A DNA stretch of 11,826 nucleotides from Thermoplasmatota archaeon (lineage in GTDB: Archaea > Thermoplasmatota > E2 > DHVEG-1): contig JAUWCF010000010.1 of NCBI GenBank assembly GCA_030609445.1, forward strand, positions 1-11,826. Reading direction: 5' to 3'. A program made the translations under genes and the position numbers. Of this stretch, positions 1,639 to 11,826 are shown piece after piece (positions within the stretch are counted from its first letter, which is position 1; the number at the start of each line of letters is the position of its first letter). The notes under the pieces were generated by a model, which was not told where the DNA came from, ran no database searches, and saw only the letters and a program-made list of their open reading frames with translations.

Positions 1639-3518
1639 TTCTTCCCCTCCTTTTTAGAGATGGCATCTACTGGGCAAATCTCTACACAGTTCCCACAACC
1701 ATTGCACTGTGTCTCATCAATATGGATGCTTCCATCGTCAGCATAGTAAAACGCAGGGCATCCAAATCGGCCGATACATGTCTTACATTTTGTACATTTA
1801 TCTTGGTCAATGGTGTAGACAGGAATTTTTTCTCCTGCTCTTCGCATCCGCTGGACTTCCAGAAGGATACATGGCGATTTACTGACAACAACAGATGGTC
1901 CTTTGAAATCAAGTGCTCTTTTGTATGCTTCAGCTGTCTCTTTAATATTGTTTGGATCAACAACCTCGATATGTTTAACACCAAGACCTTTGACGATATC
2001 CTCAATTACAATAAGGTTTGCTTGTCTCCCCATCCCGTCAAATTCTGTTCCCGGGTTTGGTTGATGTCCAGTCATTGCAGTTGTTCTATTATCAAGGATG
2101 CTTATCACACAGTCATGATTATGATAGACTGCATTGATGATTGGCGGGATTCCTGAATGAAAGAATGTAGAATCTCCCATAAATGAAATGATTTTTTGAT
2201 CAGTTGCAACAGAAAGACCACATGCAGTACCCGCATTTGAACCCATACATAATAACAGATCTGCTGTTTCAAGTGGAGGAGCCTTACCAAGGGTATAACA
2301 TCCAATGTCTGTCGGATAAATCGTGTCTTTTGGCGCTGCTTTTTTCACTGCGTAATATGTTGCTCTATGTGGACATCCTGGACATAGAGTGGGAGGTCTA
2401 CTTGGTAGCTTTAACTTTGGTTGCATCTGTTTTGGAAACGGATTTTTTACCTTGAATATCTTTGAGAACGCCTCAGCAACTATGTCTGGGTTGTATTCGT
2501 ATAATCTGGAGAAATGATCTGTAGATTTTCCATAGATTCTTACGTTTGATCCAATGTCATATGCCATTGCTTTGAATTGATTTTCAAGAATAGGTTCGCC
2601 TTCTTCAACAACAATTAAAGATTTACAAGATTTAATGAATTTTTCACACATTTTTCGTGGGAGAGGATGTGTCATCCCAAGTTTTAAAATGCCGACATCG
2701 AGATCCATGATTTCTGATACTTCTTTTACATAGTTATAGGAAACACCTGAAGTAACTATTCCAAAATCTTTTGGTGTTCCTATGTTTATAACTTCGTTAA
2801 ATGGTGATTTCTCTGAAATTTTTTCAGCTTGCTTCATTTTTTCAAGTAAAACAGGATGTTTTATCCGTGCAGTATTTGGAGTAGTAACTAGCAACGGATC
2901 TTTTTCAAAATGCCCTTTTTTCCGAGGTTTTTTCAGTTTATTAAAAGTAACTGCTCCTCGGGCATGATTTAATCTAGTGGTTGTCCTTAAAAGAACAGGG
3001 AGTTTTAATTCTTCAGATAGTTCAAATCCAAGTCTGGTCATCTCTTTTGCTTCTTGTGGTGTTGTTGGTTCAAGCATTGGTGCACTACCAAACAATGCAA
3101 AATATCTGTTGTCTTGTTCGTTTTGAGAGGAATGACAATACGGATCATCTGCAGTGACAATGATATGACCAGCTTTACAGCCTACATAAAGATATGTCAT
3201 GAATGCATCAGATGCAACGTTTAGACCAACATGTTTCATACAAGTAAGTGCTCTAAGGCCACTAAATGCTGCAGCAGCTGCAACCTCTAATGCAACTTTT
3301 TCATTTGTTGAATATTCACAATAGAATCCAGGGTCTTTATTTTGTTTTGTAGCATATTTTGCAATTTTTGAAAATGTATCAGCGATTTCTGATGAAGGCG
3401 TTCCTGGATAGGTTGTTGCTATATCGACTCCTGCCTCAAGTGCTCCTCTTGTTATGGCTTCATTTCCTAGTAACAGAATTTTTTTCCCAACTTTATTTTC
3501 AATTATTTCCATCATCAT
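1635..3518 (-). CDS. iorA: Indolepyruvate:ferredoxin oxidoreductase, alpha subunit
   Basis: At 627 residues, full IorA length. The N-terminal pyrimidine-binding domain carries TTYPGTPSSEI (about 36-45). A middle domain resembles domain II of 2-oxoacid oxidoreductases. The C-terminal TPP-pyrophosphate domain has CPGCPHRAT (379-386) and the GDS...LDN metal/TPP motif (448-450, 475-477). The extreme C-terminus is a two-cluster ferredoxin module: C575/C578/C581/C587 and C605/C608/C611/C615. It catalyses the TPP-dependent decarboxylating oxidation of aryl-pyruvates, passing electrons to ferredoxin, as partner of IorB. Three ATG codons in a row open the gene (3518, 3515, 3512). GGTGA at 3522-3526 is best spaced for the second or third, so the protein may be one or two residues shorter. 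Confidence 0.95.
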   Translation of the reverse strand: MMMEIIENKVGKKILLLGNEAITRGALEAGVDIATTYPGTPSSEIADTFSKIAKYATKQNKDPGFYCEYSTNEKVALEVAAAAAFSGLRALTCMKHVGLNVASDAFMTYLYVGCKAGHIIVTADDPYCHSSQNEQDNRYFALFGSAPMLEPTTPQEAKEMTRLGFELSEELKLPVLLRTTTRLNHARGAVTFNKLKKPRKKGHFEKDPLLVTTPNTARIKHPVLLEKMKQAEKISEKSPFNEVINIGTPKDFGIVTSGVSYNYVKEVSEIMDLDVGILKLGMTHPLPRKMCEKFIKSCKSLIVVEEGEPILENQFKAMAYDIGSNVRIYGKSTDHFSRLYEYNPDIVAEAFSKIFKVKNPFPKQMQPKLKLPSRPPTLCPGCPHRATYYAVKKAAPKDTIYPTDIGCYTLGKAPPLETADLLLCMGSNAGTACGLSVATDQKIISFMGDSTFFHSGIPPIINAVYHNHDCVISILDNRTTAMTGHQPNPGTEFDGMGRQANLIVIEDIVKGLGVKHIEVVDPNNIKETAEAYKRALDFKGPSVVVSKSPCILLEVQRMRRAGEKIPVYTIDQDKCTKCKTCIGRFGCPAFYYADDGSIHIDETQCNGCGNCVEICPVDAISKKEGKK

Positions 3519-5747: not shown

Positions 5748-6032
5748 ATGACAGCAAAAGGAAGCGAAGAAAACGTAATATTTGTAGGAAACAAACCACC
5801 AATGAGCTACGTACTTGCTATAGTCACACAGTTCAATAGCGGCTCAAATGAAGTAATCGTAAAAGCCAGAGGCAGAGCCATCAGCAGAGCCGTCGATGCA
5901 GCAGAGATTACAAGAAACAGGTTTGTTACAGACGCAAAAATCAAGCAAATAGAGATTGGAACAGAATCTATTACAAACGAAGAAGGAAGAACATCAAACG
6001 TCTCATCAATTGAGATAACTCTAGAAAAATAA
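5748..6032 (+). CDS. alba: Alba DNA/RNA-binding chromatin protein
   Basis: At 94 residues, normal Alba length. The family core is plain: [16 protein letters not shown] (9-24), [19 protein letters not shown] (35-53), and IEIGTES followed by a SSIEITL strand at the C-terminus. Alba is an abundant dimer that coats DNA and also binds RNA; the Lys in the first loop contacts nucleic acid and is acetylated in Sulfolobus. The family's usual paired GKKP is GNKP here, keeping only the second Lys (Lys16). A strong GGGAGGT ribosome binding site and a clear promoter imply high expression. The gene is monocistronic, ended by a hairpin and T-rich tract at 6034-6076. Confidence 0.96.
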
Positions 6033-6147: not shown

Positions 6148-8397
6148 TTATGCATTAACAACAGCTAATGCTTCTAGTGCTCTATTGAAAGTTGAGCTTG
6201 GGCGCATTGCTTCTGTTACCATTTCAATATTTGGTTTATAGTAGCCACCCATATCAACTGGTTTTCCTTGTGCAGCATTCAACTCATCGATTATCTTGGT
6301 CTCGTTATCTGCAAGTTCTTGTGCAAGTTTTGTAAAACGCTCTTGAAGTTCAATATCTTTTATCTGCTCAGCCATTGATTGTGCCCAGTATAATGTAAGA
6401 TAGAAATGACTACCTCTATTATCCAACTCATTAACCTTACGAGAAGGCGACTTGTTGTTTAAAAGAAATTTACTAGTTGCTTGGTCAAGGGTATCTCCTA
6501 AGACTTGGGCATTCTCATTATTGGTTGTTTTACTTAAATGTTCCAATGATACTGCAAGAGCTAGAAATTCGCCAAGGGAATCCCATCGTAGATGACCTTC
6601 TTCTAGAAATTGTTGAACGTGTTTGGGGGCTGATCCACCTGCTCCCGTTTCATATAACCCACCGCCATTCATGAGAGGTACTATTGAATACATTTTTGCA
6701 CTGGTACCTACTTCAAGAATCGGAAACAAGTCTGTCAAATAATCACGTAATACGTTACCGGTAACTGAAATCGTGTCTTTACCATCTTTCATACGCTCTA
6801 TTGAAAAACGTGTGGCTTCTACCGGTGGCATGATAGGGATTTCCAGGTCATTTGTATCATAATCTTGTAAATAACGATTTAATTTTTCTATAAGTTGCGC
6901 ATCATGTGCTCTGTTTTTGTCCAACCAGAAAACAGCAGGCCATCCAGTTGCTTTTGCTCTATTTACAGCGAGTTTAACCCAGTCTTGAATTGGAAGATCT
7001 TTTACCTGGCACATACGCCAGACGTCTCCTTCTTCGACGGTGTGTTCGAGCATTGTTTGTCCTGAAGAAGCAACAACACGAATTATTCCATTGTCAGGGC
7101 ATAGAAATGTCTTGTCATGAGATCCATATTCTTCTGCTTTTTGGGCCATAAGACCAACATTTTGAACTGTTCCCATTGTTGTTGGATCAAAAGCTCCATG
7201 TTTTTTACAGAAATCAATGGATTCCTTATACACTCCAGCATAACTGCTGTCAGGTATCACAAATTTTGTGTCATGAAGTTTACCATCTGGGCCCCACATT
7301 TGCCCCGAATTCCGAATTGCAGCTGGTATAGATGCATCGATAATCACATCACTAGGTACATGGAGGTTTGTGATTCCTTTATCGGAGTTTACCATCGCAA
7401 GTTTTGGTCCATTTTCATAACATTTCTTAATGTCAGCTTCGATTTCCATTCTTTTTTCTTCAGGCAAAGTATTGATTTTTGTATAAAGATCACCTAGGCC
7501 ATTGTTTGGACTGATGCCCAGTTCTTTAAAAACCGATTCATGTTTTTCAAAAACGTCCTTGAAGAAAACAGAAACCACGTGACCAAAAATGATAGGATCT
7601 GAAACCTTCATCATTGTGGCTTTTAAATGAACAGAGAACAATACATCCTTATTTTTCGCATCTTCTATTTGCTCCTTGAGAAATGTACGTAAAGCACGTT
7701 TGTTCATAACTGTTGCATCGATGATTTCACCATCCAGAAGTGCTAGTGTTTCTTTGAGAACTTGAGAATTTCCATCTTGATCAACGAACTCAATTTTAGC
7801 GTCTCCTGCAGTAGCTTGCGTGATAGTAATAGATTTCTCGTTAGAGCAGAGATCTCCACTGTCCATATGTACAACATGTGATTTTGAATCTTTAGCCCAT
7901 TCGCCCATTGGATGCGGGTTTTCTTTTGCATAATTTTTAACAGGGTCTGGGACTCTCCGATCTGAGTTACCTTCTCTTAAAACAGGGTTTACAGCACTTC
8001 CTTTAATCTTATCATATCTAGCTTTAATCTCTTTCTCTATCTCGCCTTTTGGATTCTCTGGATAGTTTGGCAAGTTATAGCCATGCTCTTGTAATTCTTT
8101 TATTGCTGCCTTCAACTGAGGGAGTGAAGCACTGATACACGGTAGTTTAATGATATTTCCTTCTGGTTTTTTGACAAGCTCACCTAATTCTGCTAAATCA
8201 TCAGATTGTCTCTGACTCTCAGTGAGCTTCTCAGGAAACTTAGCGATAATTCTTCCTGCAAGAGAGATATCTCTCGTTTCAACGGTAACTCCTGTTGCCT
8301 CTGTGAATGCTTCGATGATAGGTAGAAAAGAGTAAGTTGCTAATGCTGGTGCTTCATCGACTTTTGTATAAATAATCTTTCCAACTTCATTACTCAT
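6148..8397 (-). CDS. icd: Monomeric NADP-dependent isocitrate dehydrogenase
   Basis: At 749 residues, it is the large single-chain IDH class, not the ~420-residue dimeric type. It converts isocitrate and NADP to 2-oxoglutarate, CO2 and NADPH, with Mg or Mn. By alignment from memory to the Azotobacter enzyme (offset +4), the key residues are in place: Lys259, Asp350 and Asp354 in [12 protein letters not shown], Tyr424, Arg551-Asp552, and the NADP-binding His593, Arg604 and Arg653. The substrate loop reads CISAS (87-91), where the family usually has NISAS. GGAGAAGG lies 6 nt before the ATG. The IscB element now separates it from aclA by about 1.5 kb; before insertion the two genes probably overlapped. 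This class is mostly bacterial, so horizontal acquisition is plausible. Confidence 0.95.
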
Positions 8398-8448
8398 TTG
8401 AATCCTTCTCCATCATATTATTTATCACCTTTGCCAAGAAGACCGCTT

Positions 8449-8464
8449 CCAAACAAATGTTTGG
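8449..8464. repeat. Right-end hairpin of the IscB element
   Basis: A perfect 6-bp stem CCAAAC/GTTTGG with an AAAT loop, followed on the plus strand by TGGTGG. It matches the left-end hairpin in sequence and orientation, and lies 20 bp past the iscB stop. Confidence 0.75.
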
Positions 8465-8484
8465 TGGTGGATGAATTGGCTTTT

Positions 8485-9840
8485 CTATCCAAATATTTCT
8501 TTTCCATAACAAATCAACTCCACATTTCTAATGTTTGAATTAATGATTTCTTTTGCATCATCAATAAGTCTGACCCATTTACCATAACTGAAAACACCTT
8601 TTACCATGCATTCTTTACCATGATATCTAACTAAATCGTTTGGCTGAAGTTTGTATCTCTGCCTGCGAATAGATGGCTTAAATCCCTTGCGATTGGTCTG
8701 AATTGAACGGTTGTTGCGTCTGACCTGTTTTGCAATCAATGGAATGGTACGAGCTACGTCCCTTGTCCCTCCAGCGATAACAAAAGCATCGTTGATATGG
8801 GACTTTTGCAACCCTTGTTTAATGCGATTATGTTTTGTAACATAACCATAAGTATGTCCGCATCCAAGAGCATTGACTATTTTCCATCGAACCATAGTCA
8901 TAAAGGTCTCAGGCTTGAAATTCTTAACCTTCTTTTTTGGAATGATATCAACACCTGTATGGTGCTCTTCATGACAGGTTTTGCATACTGTCAAAAGCTT
9001 TTCTGATCTGTCCGTTGCACCTTCAGCTTTACCATTGATATGATGAACTTGCAGAATTAGGTCTTTCTTTTTTCCATGACAATGCTGACAGGCATGATTA
9101 TCTCGATGCAAAACATATTCCCGAACGTTCCAAAAACCAAGTTGTTCTCCTTGCTGATATTCTTCTCCTTGAATATCTAGATTTTTGATTTTCTGAATAT
9201 CAAAACCTGCTACCTCAACCATGGTCTCAGTTATGGGTAACAGTTTCTTGATTTTCTCAACAAGCCTGATATGACTGTCAAGTTTGTGCTGGATACTTGG
9301 TGCAAGCCATCCTTTGGGCTTGCTTCGGTTGTCGAATCTTGCCTGTCGATGCCAGAGTTTGTTTCTTCGTGTTCTACGGTAGTTTCTTCTTTGCTCCAGC
9401 AGTTTTGAAATGTTGGTTCGCAGTTGCACTTCACCAGATAGAAGTTCCTTTTTGCTGGTTACTGCTGAAAAACCAATTGTTTTGTACCCATTATCCAATC
9501 CTAAAGTAACTGGTTGTCTTGCAGTGCCTTTTGTTTCCAGCAGCTGTATTGTAAAAGGCTTTCTACTGACTACTATTGCTTTGCCTTGTTCAAGCAGATG
9601 TCGTGCTTTAGCTGGTTTACAAGGCATCAAAGGCTCTTTTTGCAAGTTAATGACATATACGCTTAGGTTATGTCCAGTCTTGCCAGACTGTTGGTCCACA
9701 TCGGAGTTGCTAGAAAACGTTTTTGCATTCTGCAACACTTGACCTACCACACAGTCATGTTTAATCACAGAATTACAGTTGCTACGGATTTGTGGAGCGT
9801 CCGTAGGTGTATTATTATGTCTTTTTTCTAGCTTCTGCAT
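8485..9840 (-). CDS. iscB: IscB RNA-guided nuclease (RuvC + HNH), Cas9-ancestor family
   Basis: A protein of 451 residues from the ATG at 9840, chosen because AGGAGG (9850-9855) lies 9 nt upstream; the frame is open to a TTG at 9888 inside the end hairpin. Residues 1-60 are an unusual extension over hairpin-rich DNA. The PLMP domain starts at VYVINLQKEPLMPC (61-74). RuvC-I is LGLDNG with Asp116. The Arg-rich bridge helix spans about 147-172 (RRNYRRTRRNK). RuvC-II is VEVAGFD with Glu209. HNH spans about 243-295 with zinc Cys251/254 and 286/289 and catalytic VHH (265-267). RuvC-III is HIND with His348 and Asp351. A basic C-terminal domain follows. All catalytic residues are kept, so it should be an active omega-RNA-guided dual nuclease that helps the element persist after excision. 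Confidence 0.92.
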   Translation of the reverse strand: MQKLEKRHNNTPTDAPQIRSNCNSVIKHDCVVGQVLQNAKTFSSNSDVDQQSGKTGHNLSVYVINLQKEPLMPCKPAKARHLLEQGKAIVVSRKPFTIQLLETKGTARQPVTLGLDNGYKTIGFSAVTSKKELLSGEVQLRTNISKLLEQRRNYRRTRRNKLWHRQARFDNRSKPKGWLAPSIQHKLDSHIRLVEKIKKLLPITETMVEVAGFDIQKIKNLDIQGEEYQQGEQLGFWNVREYVLHRDNHACQHCHGKKKDLILQVHHINGKAEGATDRSEKLLTVCKTCHEEHHTGVDIIPKKKVKNFKPETFMTMVRWKIVNALGCGHTYGYVTKHNRIKQGLQKSHINDAFVIAGGTRDVARTIPLIAKQVRRNNRSIQTNRKGFKPSIRRQRYKLQPNDLVRYHGKECMVKGVFSYGKWVRLIDDAKEIINSNIRNVELICYGKEIFG

Positions 9841-9849
9841 ATTTCTATG

Positions 9850-9855
9850 CCTCCT
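9850..9855 (-). promoter_or_regulatory. Ribosome binding site deciding the iscB start
   Basis: AGGAGG on the minus strand, 9 nt before the ATG at 9840. It favours this start over the TTG at 9888 and means the omega RNA region is probably also translated. Confidence 0.7.
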
Positions 9856-9884
9856 AATCAACTTGTGACTTTTGCAAGCCACTT

Positions 9885-9902
9885 CCAAAACCTAAGTTTT
9901 GG
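9885..9902. repeat. Left-end hairpin of the IscB element
   Basis: A perfect 7-bp stem CCAAAAC/GTTTTGG with a CTAA loop, followed on the plus strand by TGGTGG. It contains the present stop codon of aclA (TAG, 9892-9894) and is the counterpart of the right-end hairpin at 8449-8464. Confidence 0.75.
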
Positions 9903-11769
9903 TGGTGGTAGTTGACTTCACTTTTTCTGGTTTATCAGGCATCATATAAGCAATATCGTCCCATGGATGCCGATACAGTCCTGCCTTCATTCGTTTCTGA
10001 TCCATAATATGTCCCATGAATCCAATGCTTCTCCCAAGTACAAAGAGTGCATTGAGTGTTCCAAGAGAAACAAATTCTTTTACTTCTTCTGGAGAGTATC
10101 CTATGCTTCTAAACATGTCACAGCAGAGAATACCAATGCATCCATCAACGTTAAGGATAAGATTTCCTCTTTTTGCTGTGGTTATTTTTTCAACTTCCAG
10201 TGCATAGTCCAAATATGGAGTCATTGGGAAGTTCTTTTTTGCATAAGCCTTGAGTAGCGTTACACGTACATCAGGATTTGTTACTGATTTTATTCTATGG
10301 CCGATACCTTGGATGTTGATATTTTTGTTTTTCATATCTTTTACCATGAATTCAGGAGGATGCCCTGCATCACAATATGATGTGAAATGTTCTGCAGCAC
10401 CTTTTACTGCCCCTCCAAATCTTGGTCCGATAGTAAGTAGACCACTCACCAGTGACGAAATGAGATCTTTACCTGCTCGTGCTGTGACAATCGCGTTATG
10501 AGCTCCAGATACTGCTGGACCGTGATCTGCTGTAAGTAGAACAACCATTTCAAGAAAATCAGTTGACCATTTTGGAAGTTTCTTCTTGAACCAAAGTAGA
10601 CCAAGTACGCCACCTAGCCCATAATTATCTTCAAATATCTTACTGATCGGGATACCGCAATACATGAGTTCCTCGCCACGATCATCTGAAATCGTACTGA
10701 TAAACTCAGAAGGCTTCCGCACGATACCATCACGGATAGCAACCTTGTAATCGATAGGTATCCTTGGTGGTTCTATGTCAGGCATTGGTTTTATTCTCCC
10801 TGCCTTTACTTCTTTATCAAAAACTTCTTTGATTTTTTTATCAAAATCTTCAAAGGAATCCGGAACAGCAGCTCCTGCTTCTTTAAGTGCTTTATTTTTT
10901 ACATCAGCTGTTTCCCTATCAGCACCCGCTCTTGCACCTGCATGACCAAACTGTACCTCCGCTGGGAAGACCTTTGAGCATGTTCCAATGCACCAGGCAA
11001 CGAGTGGCTTTTTGATTTTTCCAGATTTTAACGCATCAACAACTACATATTCGTCAATACCACCAACTTCCCCTAGCAATACGATCATTTTTATGTCTGG
11101 ATTTTTCTCGTATCTCATGATGTGCTCTATAAATGTTGAGCCAGGATACCGGTCACCACCAATAGCTACTCCTTCATAGACGCCGTCAGAGTTGCGGGCA
11201 ATGATGTTGTTCAGTTCATTTGATAAACCACCTGATTTTGATACATAGGCAACGCTACCTGGTCTATGAAGGCGACAGGCAATAATGTTATCAAGCATTC
11301 CTGCGGTGTTTCCTATCCTAAATCCACCACCAGCAATACCTCCAACTGTTGCAGGACCAATAATCCATTTTTTCTTTTCATTTGCAATTTTAACCAACTC
11401 TCTTGATCTCCGCTCAGGAACACCTTCAGCGATAATTGCTACTGTTCGTATGGTTTTGCTTTCAAGAGCTTCTTTTGATGTTTGATATGCCGACCTAAAC
11501 GATGCAAAGTTTACCATGACATCTACATCATTATGCTTTGCAACTGCTTCCTTAAGAGTCTTGTACATAGGGATCATAACTTCTTTTGTTCCCCAGAAGC
11601 ACTTGTGATATCCTTCTCTAGTGGGATTTACAATACAGGCAACTGATGGTTCTTTTCTCCTGCAGATGTAATCAAAATCAAGCATACGTTGGATTGCATT
11701 TTGTTGATAACCAAACACTATGGCCTTTGTATCCTTATCAAACAATATATATTCTGGTCTTTTTTTCAT
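9892..11769 (-). CDS. aclA: ATP-citrate lyase, large subunit (CoA-ligase plus citrate synthase domains)
   Basis: A protein of 625 residues from the ATG at 11769; GAGGGGG 6 nt upstream favours this over the TTG at 11787. Residues 1-330 are the succinyl-CoA-ligase alpha-like part with phosphohistidine His276 in VQFGHAGARAG and Glu234 in LLGEVGG. Residues about 340-612 are the citrate-synthase domain with TADHGPAVSGAHN (His416), GIGHRIKS (His491) and NVDGCIG (Asp542). The end HPWDDIAYMMP matches the C-terminus of eukaryotic and Chlorobium enzymes. With AclB it cleaves citrate with ATP and CoA to acetyl-CoA and oxaloacetate. The last eight residues (KSTTTTKT) and the stop lie in or at the border of the inserted IscB element, so the native tail has been replaced. 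The gene naming follows Chlorobium (aclBA). Confidence 0.95.
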   Translation of the reverse strand: MKKRPEYILFDKDTKAIVFGYQQNAIQRMLDFDYICRRKEPSVACIVNPTREGYHKCFWGTKEVMIPMYKTLKEAVAKHNDVDVMVNFASFRSAYQTSKEALESKTIRTVAIIAEGVPERRSRELVKIANEKKKWIIGPATVGGIAGGGFRIGNTAGMLDNIIACRLHRPGSVAYVSKSGGLSNELNNIIARNSDGVYEGVAIGGDRYPGSTFIEHIMRYEKNPDIKMIVLLGEVGGIDEYVVVDALKSGKIKKPLVAWCIGTCSKVFPAEVQFGHAGARAGADRETADVKNKALKEAGAAVPDSFEDFDKKIKEVFDKEVKAGRIKPMPDIEPPRIPIDYKVAIRDGIVRKPSEFISTISDDRGEELMYCGIPISKIFEDNYGLGGVLGLLWFKKKLPKWSTDFLEMVVLLTADHGPAVSGAHNAIVTARAGKDLISSLVSGLLTIGPRFGGAVKGAAEHFTSYCDAGHPPEFMVKDMKNKNINIQGIGHRIKSVTNPDVRVTLLKAYAKKNFPMTPYLDYALEVEKITTAKRGNLILNVDGCIGILCCDMFRSIGYSPEEVKEFVSLGTLNALFVLGRSIGFMGHIMDQKRMKAGLYRHPWDDIAYMMPDKPEKVKSTTTTKT

Positions 11770-11770
11770 T

Positions 11771-11826
11771 TTAAACCCCCTCGCCAAGAGCTATTGGAAC
11801 AATTCTTGTCATGTGAGTTTCAGGAC
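11771..11826 (-). CDS. aclB: ATP-citrate lyase, small subunit, C-terminal end only
   Basis: The last 18 codons of a gene entering from the right edge, ending TAA at 11771-11773, one base before the aclA ATG. The visible peptide is PETHMTRIVPIALGEGV. It resembles the conserved GPEATMTGI (eukaryotic) or GPETHMT-type end of the ATP-grasp, citrate- and ATP-binding small subunit. The order small then large subunit matches the aclBA operons of green sulfur bacteria, and the one-base gap implies translational coupling. Identification rests on this short peptide plus position. Confidence 0.75.
   Translation of the reverse strand, partial: PETHMTRIVPIALGEGV

Follow-up and report, generated by a model that had tools for sequence, protein, structure and literature searches.

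Where does translation of an IscB nuclease begin when the reading frame of its gene stays open far into the omegaRNA that precedes the nuclease core? This question is raised by a complete IscB element in an 11,826-nt stretch of a Thermoplasmatota archaeon genome (contig JAUWCF010000010.1 of assembly GCA_030609445.1; hereafter the window). The element occupies positions 8426-9916 on the minus strand (1,491 bp, GTCAAC...GGTG on the iscB strand), as defined by a second copy and by empty sites. Its omegaRNA scaffold lies at 9690-9916 on the same strand, where cmscan gave a full-length HEARO match (RF02033, model positions 1-211; 104.5 bits, with the gathering score set at 83, E 3.5e-21), and the proposed start codon of iscB, an ATG at 9838-9840 (minus strand), falls within this RNA. 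From that ATG to its stop, iscB covers 8485-9840 on the minus strand and encodes 451 aa; the open reading frame (ORF) list begins it at TTG 9888. We consider it probable that this is a non-autonomous IscB element in which translation initiates inside the omegaRNA and each transcript serves either as message or as guide. An OMEGA system with IscB in a non-autonomous IS200/IS605-type element is of an already known kind, and the new part is the location of the IscB start. In the passages and listings of open-licence literature covered by the search, we found no description of a start codon inside an IscB omegaRNA.

Where IscB translation would begin

The iscB frame is open far into the RNA, up to an ATG that follows AGGAGG, in the window, in the second element copy of the same genome (contig C112) and in both copies of G035. 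The AGGAGG, at 9850-9855 on the minus strand, is a Shine-Dalgarno sequence and, from the RNA alignment and folding, also the 5' arm of omegaRNA helix 4. The internal start would add ~60 residues to IscB, and the first 50 codons lie within the RNA match. At this start the anti-Shine-Dalgarno energy ranges from -6.0 to -9.9 in all 15 loci counted as having the extension; in the window it is -9.9, versus -3.8 for the stretch upstream of the core. From this ATG to the core strand, neither ATG nor TTG occurs in the window, and GTG is present only as codons 25, 31, 35 and 48. Shine-Dalgarno use in this genome is plausible, as another ATG, at 5748, is also preceded by GGGAGG. Internal initiation is likely, with strong support from the sequence, which points the opposite way from the usual arrangement, in which a non-coding omegaRNA leader ends before the start codon.

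The extension is common among the nearest proteins listed. A protein database query with the core only (residues 75-467 of the ORF) listed the 120 nearest proteins, of which 113 carry the extension, including four assigned by hand (P0099, P0113, P0114 and P0117); three are without it (P0118, P0123 and P0124) and four are truncated or unclear (P0052, P0080, P0086 and P0122). The N-termini of the 113 are MQKL-like in 90, MV(E/K/A)V in 19 and of other types in four. Judged from protein sequences only, proteins of the MVEV type seem to use a different frame at the beginning of the RNA and to rejoin afterwards. On a FastTree tree of 212 rows, for which the decayed pieces L119-L121 of G180 were too short, the extension label needs five changes compared with a mean of 62.7 after shuffling, and at least four are forced by the starred branches. 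The clade that holds every extension protein has a support of 81, and the frame is open in 10 of its 12 DNA loci. Outside the main clade, two IMG/VR viral contigs (L125 and L147) also have a frame through the RNA, with AAAGGAG and TTG replacing AGGAGG and ATG, which is apparently a separate gain.

The DNA comparison comprised 103 rows with both RNA and IscB, of which 15 distinct extension loci were counted; a second cmscan covered 19 of 20 sources (L035 was left out for its size). A contig scan of genomes with a single-sequence query returned 16 loci, and none of the 12 HEARO-bearing ones examined is open through the whole RNA; in these, IscB starts just 3' of the RNA.

Helix 4 and the folding of the message

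What is conserved in the extension is the RNA rather than the peptide. Over 13 loci, differences at the three codon positions of the extension are 0.33/0.32/0.36, with 363 synonymous and 925 non-synonymous single-base changes. The corresponding values for the first part of the core are 0.31/0.25/0.58, with 1750 synonymous and 603 non-synonymous changes. In the AlphaFold2 model, the predicted local distance difference test score (pLDDT) is ~39-50 over residues 1-60 and >84 for most of the following 40 residues. A conserved N-terminal domain was rejected on the codon positions and this model. Since the extension shows no amino-acid conservation, it looks like the openness of the frame is what is kept, with the peptide as a by-product.

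In the RNA alignment, which holds 13 of the 15 extension loci (L165 and L146 were left out), 40 of the 55 pairs covary with changes on both sides, a count reached in 0 of 500 shuffles. Of the alignment cells, 90.4% pair, compared with 75.4% after shuffling and no more than 40.6% after sliding. Helix 4 is formed by the GGAG of the Shine-Dalgarno sequence and a CUCC 147 nt downstream (9703-9706, minus strand, the 3' arm); it is paired in 13 of 13 rows, and both sides have changed in two of its pairs. Among loci in which the 5' arm could be located, it resembles a Shine-Dalgarno sequence in 14 of 14 extension loci and in 4 of 53 others; a further 24 loci, where the regular expression did not locate the arm, are outside the count. 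The Rfam consensus version of this helix pairs Gccaa with uuggC.

As this conserved helix has the Shine-Dalgarno sequence for one of its arms, folding of the omegaRNA should hide that sequence. In partition-function folding, the pairing of its four central bases is ~0.77-0.79 for the complete RNA and no more than 0.34 without the 3' part, while the ATG sits within a short hairpin with or without that part. According to this modelling, nascent or unfolded RNA could be translated and folded RNA could not.

The element, its guide and its insertion sites

The one gene of the element encodes an IscB of the OMEGA family, matching NF040563 at 347.2 bits (cut-off 175) and also PF14239. A preliminary description made from the window alone had reported that all RuvC and HNH residues are kept, and alignment to 11hr_A agrees, by alignment only, with RuvC I-III and HNH represented by LGLDNG, VEVAGFD, HHINGK and KSHINDAF. 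The best Foldseek matches of the model are IscB structures, at low template modelling (TM) scores because the overall model is loose (predicted TM score of 0.54). Relatives of this IscB occur in 24 phage and 79 plasmid records, all at <60% identity.

The second full copy (G000:C112) is 86% identical across the whole query and has the same ends. Alignment of both copies with their flanks gives a common sequence from (A)GTCAAC to GGTGATAAA, which leaves a border ambiguity. This is resolved by the acl-icd junction of relative G021, which is without an insert and reads GTGAAATAAATAATATGATGG, exactly what results when the window flank that ends in GTGAA is joined to the one that begins with ATAAAT; this places the element at 8426-9916. 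The preliminary description, which had placed the borders at 8425 and 9917, was right about the element and one base too wide at each end. The GTGA that it took as a border signature proved to be chance and was rejected, since the C112 copy is flanked by TTATA on its omegaRNA side. Applied to C112, the corrected borders correspond to 6615-8102 of that contig (1,488 bp) and leave an in-frame mfnA start, M-T-S-N-Y-N-K-K-R, which has as many codons as M-S-L-Y-N-D-K-K-R in G007. Several of 30 acl loci (our own and 29 from relatives) run acl directly into icd with no insert, contrary to the fixed chromosomal gene that the preliminary description had named as a refuting outcome. Hairpin ends without iscB, also named there as contrary evidence, did not appear in the 66%-complete own genome, where no solo left end was seen and, besides the two copies, only 15-base matches.

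Just outside the element, on the iscB-3' side, both own sites (only these two) share ATAAA, which in the window lies at 8421-8425 on the minus strand (TTTAT on the plus strand); together with the empty sites of G010 and G021, this marks it as target site and predicted target-adjacent motif. Along with a defined target and no target duplication, the element has the subterminal hairpins of IS200/IS605 elements. As the preliminary description had it, both ends carry the same motif in the same orientation: CCAAAC-AAAT-GTTTGG at the iscB-3' end (8449-8464) and CCAAAAC-CTAA-GTTTTGG at the omegaRNA end (9885-9902), where it forms the first hairpin of the RNA. On the plus strand, each is followed by TGGTGG. 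The predicted transposase-free architecture also held, as the ORF list and the Pfam matches of the one gene reveal no transposase inside. The element is therefore best called non-autonomous and IS200/IS605-type, being without a Y1 TnpA. A search for a tnpA in trans, as suggested in the preliminary description, found two Y1 TnpA genes in the genome. That on contig C51 was rejected as the cognate enzyme, since its hairpins (CCCCGCC/GGCGG and CCCCGGC/GCCGGGG) are unlike those of the element, and that on C83 is cut by the contig end. Y1 genes occur in 24 of 60 relatives, and mobilisation in trans by a genomic Y1 TnpA is hypothetical. The earlier picture of a compact, transposase-free, apparently intact archaeal locus with definable borders is thus retained, except that the locus as first described was incomplete because the omegaRNA and the guide were left out; the reading frame through the RNA, its most unusual feature, had also been missed.

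The first base of the omegaRNA match is the first base of the element. A predicted guide, set at 16 nt, would come from the flanking acl 3' end (9917-9932, minus strand), as judged from its position 5' of the omegaRNA and from the acl-icd junctions of relatives; the OgeuIscB guide is reported as ~17 nt and the IscB guide is located 5' of the omegaRNA (PMC9640706). Of 80 genomes of the class, three (G010, G020 and G062) contain the guide followed by ATAA exactly, each time at the acl stop, and two more contain it with one mismatch, G021 at acl and G038 elsewhere. Uninterrupted acl-icd junctions that match the guide were seen in three other genera. Thus, four of the five matches are at the acl stop codon before icd, with G038 as the exception. 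The own genome has no match to the guide with ATAA, and the reversed-pattern control found none in the 80 genomes. The bases after the guide match are ATAAA in G010 and G021, ATAAT in G020 and ATAAG in G062. Because of these matches, the uninterrupted site of relatives would be recognised by the predicted guide. OMEGA nucleases have been proposed to act in the retention and copying of elements, and a guide that matches empty sites is what such a role would require.

The neighbouring genes are acl (9892-11787, minus strand; CoA-ligase and citrate-synthase domains), disrupted at its stop codon, and a monomeric NADP isocitrate dehydrogenase downstream (6148-8397, minus strand); iscB sits between them and all three are co-directional. 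The acl stop codon is lost to the insertion, so that the beginning of the omegaRNA (9892-9916) supplies acl with seven further residues, STTTTKT, and acl and omegaRNA overlap by ~25 nt. The C112 copy interrupts codon 6 of a pyridoxal-dependent decarboxylase (MfnA-like by our own label; L003, 5473-6696), and its in-frame N-terminus is restored by an ATG that the element supplies and that overlaps the end of iscB. The window copy and L003 are almost identical in the omegaRNA and in several blocks but differ strongly at the N-terminus of the core, a pattern that suggests recombination or gene conversion. Elsewhere, G042:C90 has a HEARO match (3115-3323, 102.3 bits) with no IscB in the fetched stretch, which ends soon after and may be cut, and G180, of another family in the same phylum, contains one complete IscB and several broken pieces, their RNAs preserved (L114, L119-L122).

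Competing explanations and relation to known systems

In the mechanism we propose, the co-directional host acl-icd operon could transcribe the element, and RNA coming from acl would carry the guide and then the omegaRNA. The ribosome-binding site and start codon would lie in the 5' half of the omegaRNA, with the frame continuing through the remainder into the nuclease. Since the conserved helix 4 has the Shine-Dalgarno sequence as its 5' arm, each transcript would be message or guide: an omegaRNA that is folded and bound by IscB would be untranslatable, and one under translation would be unusable as a guide, so that IscB would limit its own synthesis. The guide would direct IscB to cut element-free alleles beside ATAAA, which would favour retention or copying of the element. 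We extend this only tentatively, and with less than even confidence, to a large IscB clade of archaea and bacteria in which the ribosome-binding site and start would have moved into the omegaRNA, and folding or IscB binding would act as an autoregulatory switch at the root of the Cas9 lineage.

Several observations weigh against this proposal. The amino acids of the extension are unconserved and its low pLDDT predicts disorder, which would suit an ordinary IscB whose start lies 3' of the omegaRNA, at GTG 9699 or a non-standard codon, the upstream open frame being a by-product of gene callers choosing the farthest start. Downstream starts are available, namely GTG 9699 (9697-9699, minus strand) in the window and TTG, GTG or ATG in most other extension loci. 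A start codon immediately 3' of the RNA is present in 84 of the 86 other relatives, and published curation shifts such starts downstream if a start codon permits (PMC13180657). Two loci of the extension clade are not open (L115, with a long insertion, and L191, with its RNA cut by the contig end). The stop-codon contrast upstream of the core, with 0.20/4.07/4.80 stops per 180 nt in frames 0/-1/-2 of the 15 extension loci and 3.97/3.80/3.96 in 76 others, is partly circular, since an open frame was among the grounds for picking the 15; the core-only protein list, the tree and the arm count are less so. We nevertheless regard an ordinary start as improbable, because GTG 9699 has no Shine-Dalgarno sequence, the window offers no ATG or TTG before the core, the anti-Shine-Dalgarno energy favours the internal ATG, and frames run open through the RNA in nearly all of the listed nearest proteins.

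Translation through the omegaRNA might also occur without any switch, with ribosomes kept on the leader (e.g., against termination) or passing neutrally, and with the omegaRNA coming from separate transcripts or processing. The unconstrained peptide fits this as well, and TnpB guide RNA is processed from its own mRNA (PMC10278001). Moreover, occlusion would not be all-or-none, since the hairpin that holds the ATG stays paired whether or not helix 4 forms. The RNAalifold structure and its controls come from one 13-row alignment, and the arms of L129 and L126 are Shine-Dalgarno-like though these are not counted as extension loci, and both points weigh against the main proposal. The Shine-Dalgarno sequence, however, falls exactly in a conserved helix arm whose other arm has changed with it, and we hold this explanation to be unlikely, if far from negligible. 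That the locus is a decayed or fixed chromosomal gene could be argued from the presence of two copies only in a 66%-complete genome and from the lack of an identified cognate TnpA, but it is highly improbable given an intact frame, RuvC and HNH residues that align to solved IscBs, two copies at unrelated sites with the same ends, and precise empty sites. Internal initiation with a guide-or-message switch thus remains our preferred reading.

If this reading is correct, the guide RNA of these Cas9 relatives doubles as coding sequence, and guide supply and enzyme supply would conflict on one molecule, giving a simple feedback. This would be a testable answer to how OMEGA systems hold a nuclease prone to self-targeting at a low level. 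For this clade, the way in which IscB starts and omegaRNA ends have been curated in print would put the start in the wrong place, and constructs that express protein and RNA separately would lose a natural control. The exact empty sites in other genera make the target and the retention of the element directly testable.

Compared with other non-autonomous IS200/IS605 elements, ours is alike in its subterminal hairpins, its insertion 3' of a short AT-rich site and the absence of target duplication; it carries no TnpA of its own, and a cognate TnpA was not identified. It shares with OgeuIscB and other OMEGA systems the PLMP, RuvC and HNH layout, a HEARO-type omegaRNA 5' of the core, and a guide 5' of the RNA with the motif 3' of the target (PMC9640706). 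The IscB omegaRNA has been described as a 5' untranslated region (PMC9755519) and curated to end ~2 bp before the start (PMC13180657); there the RNA precedes the start, whereas here the frame runs through it. TnpB omegaRNA derives from its own mRNA (PMC10278001), and sense-overlapping RNAs have been described (PMC12558985), so that a single RNA is message and guide as proposed here, but at the 3' end of the gene instead of at the 5' end with the start site inside. In IsrB, the Shine-Dalgarno sequence lies in the terminal hairpin of the omegaRNA and is contacted by the PLMP domain, and a control of expression was suggested (PMC9581776). The ribosome-binding site is thus inside the omegaRNA in both cases, although in IsrB it occupies the final hairpin, directly before the coding region, while here it sits in the 5' half, so that most of the omegaRNA would be coding. 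By this analogy, the present clade would extend the IsrB-type link between the Shine-Dalgarno sequence and the omegaRNA.

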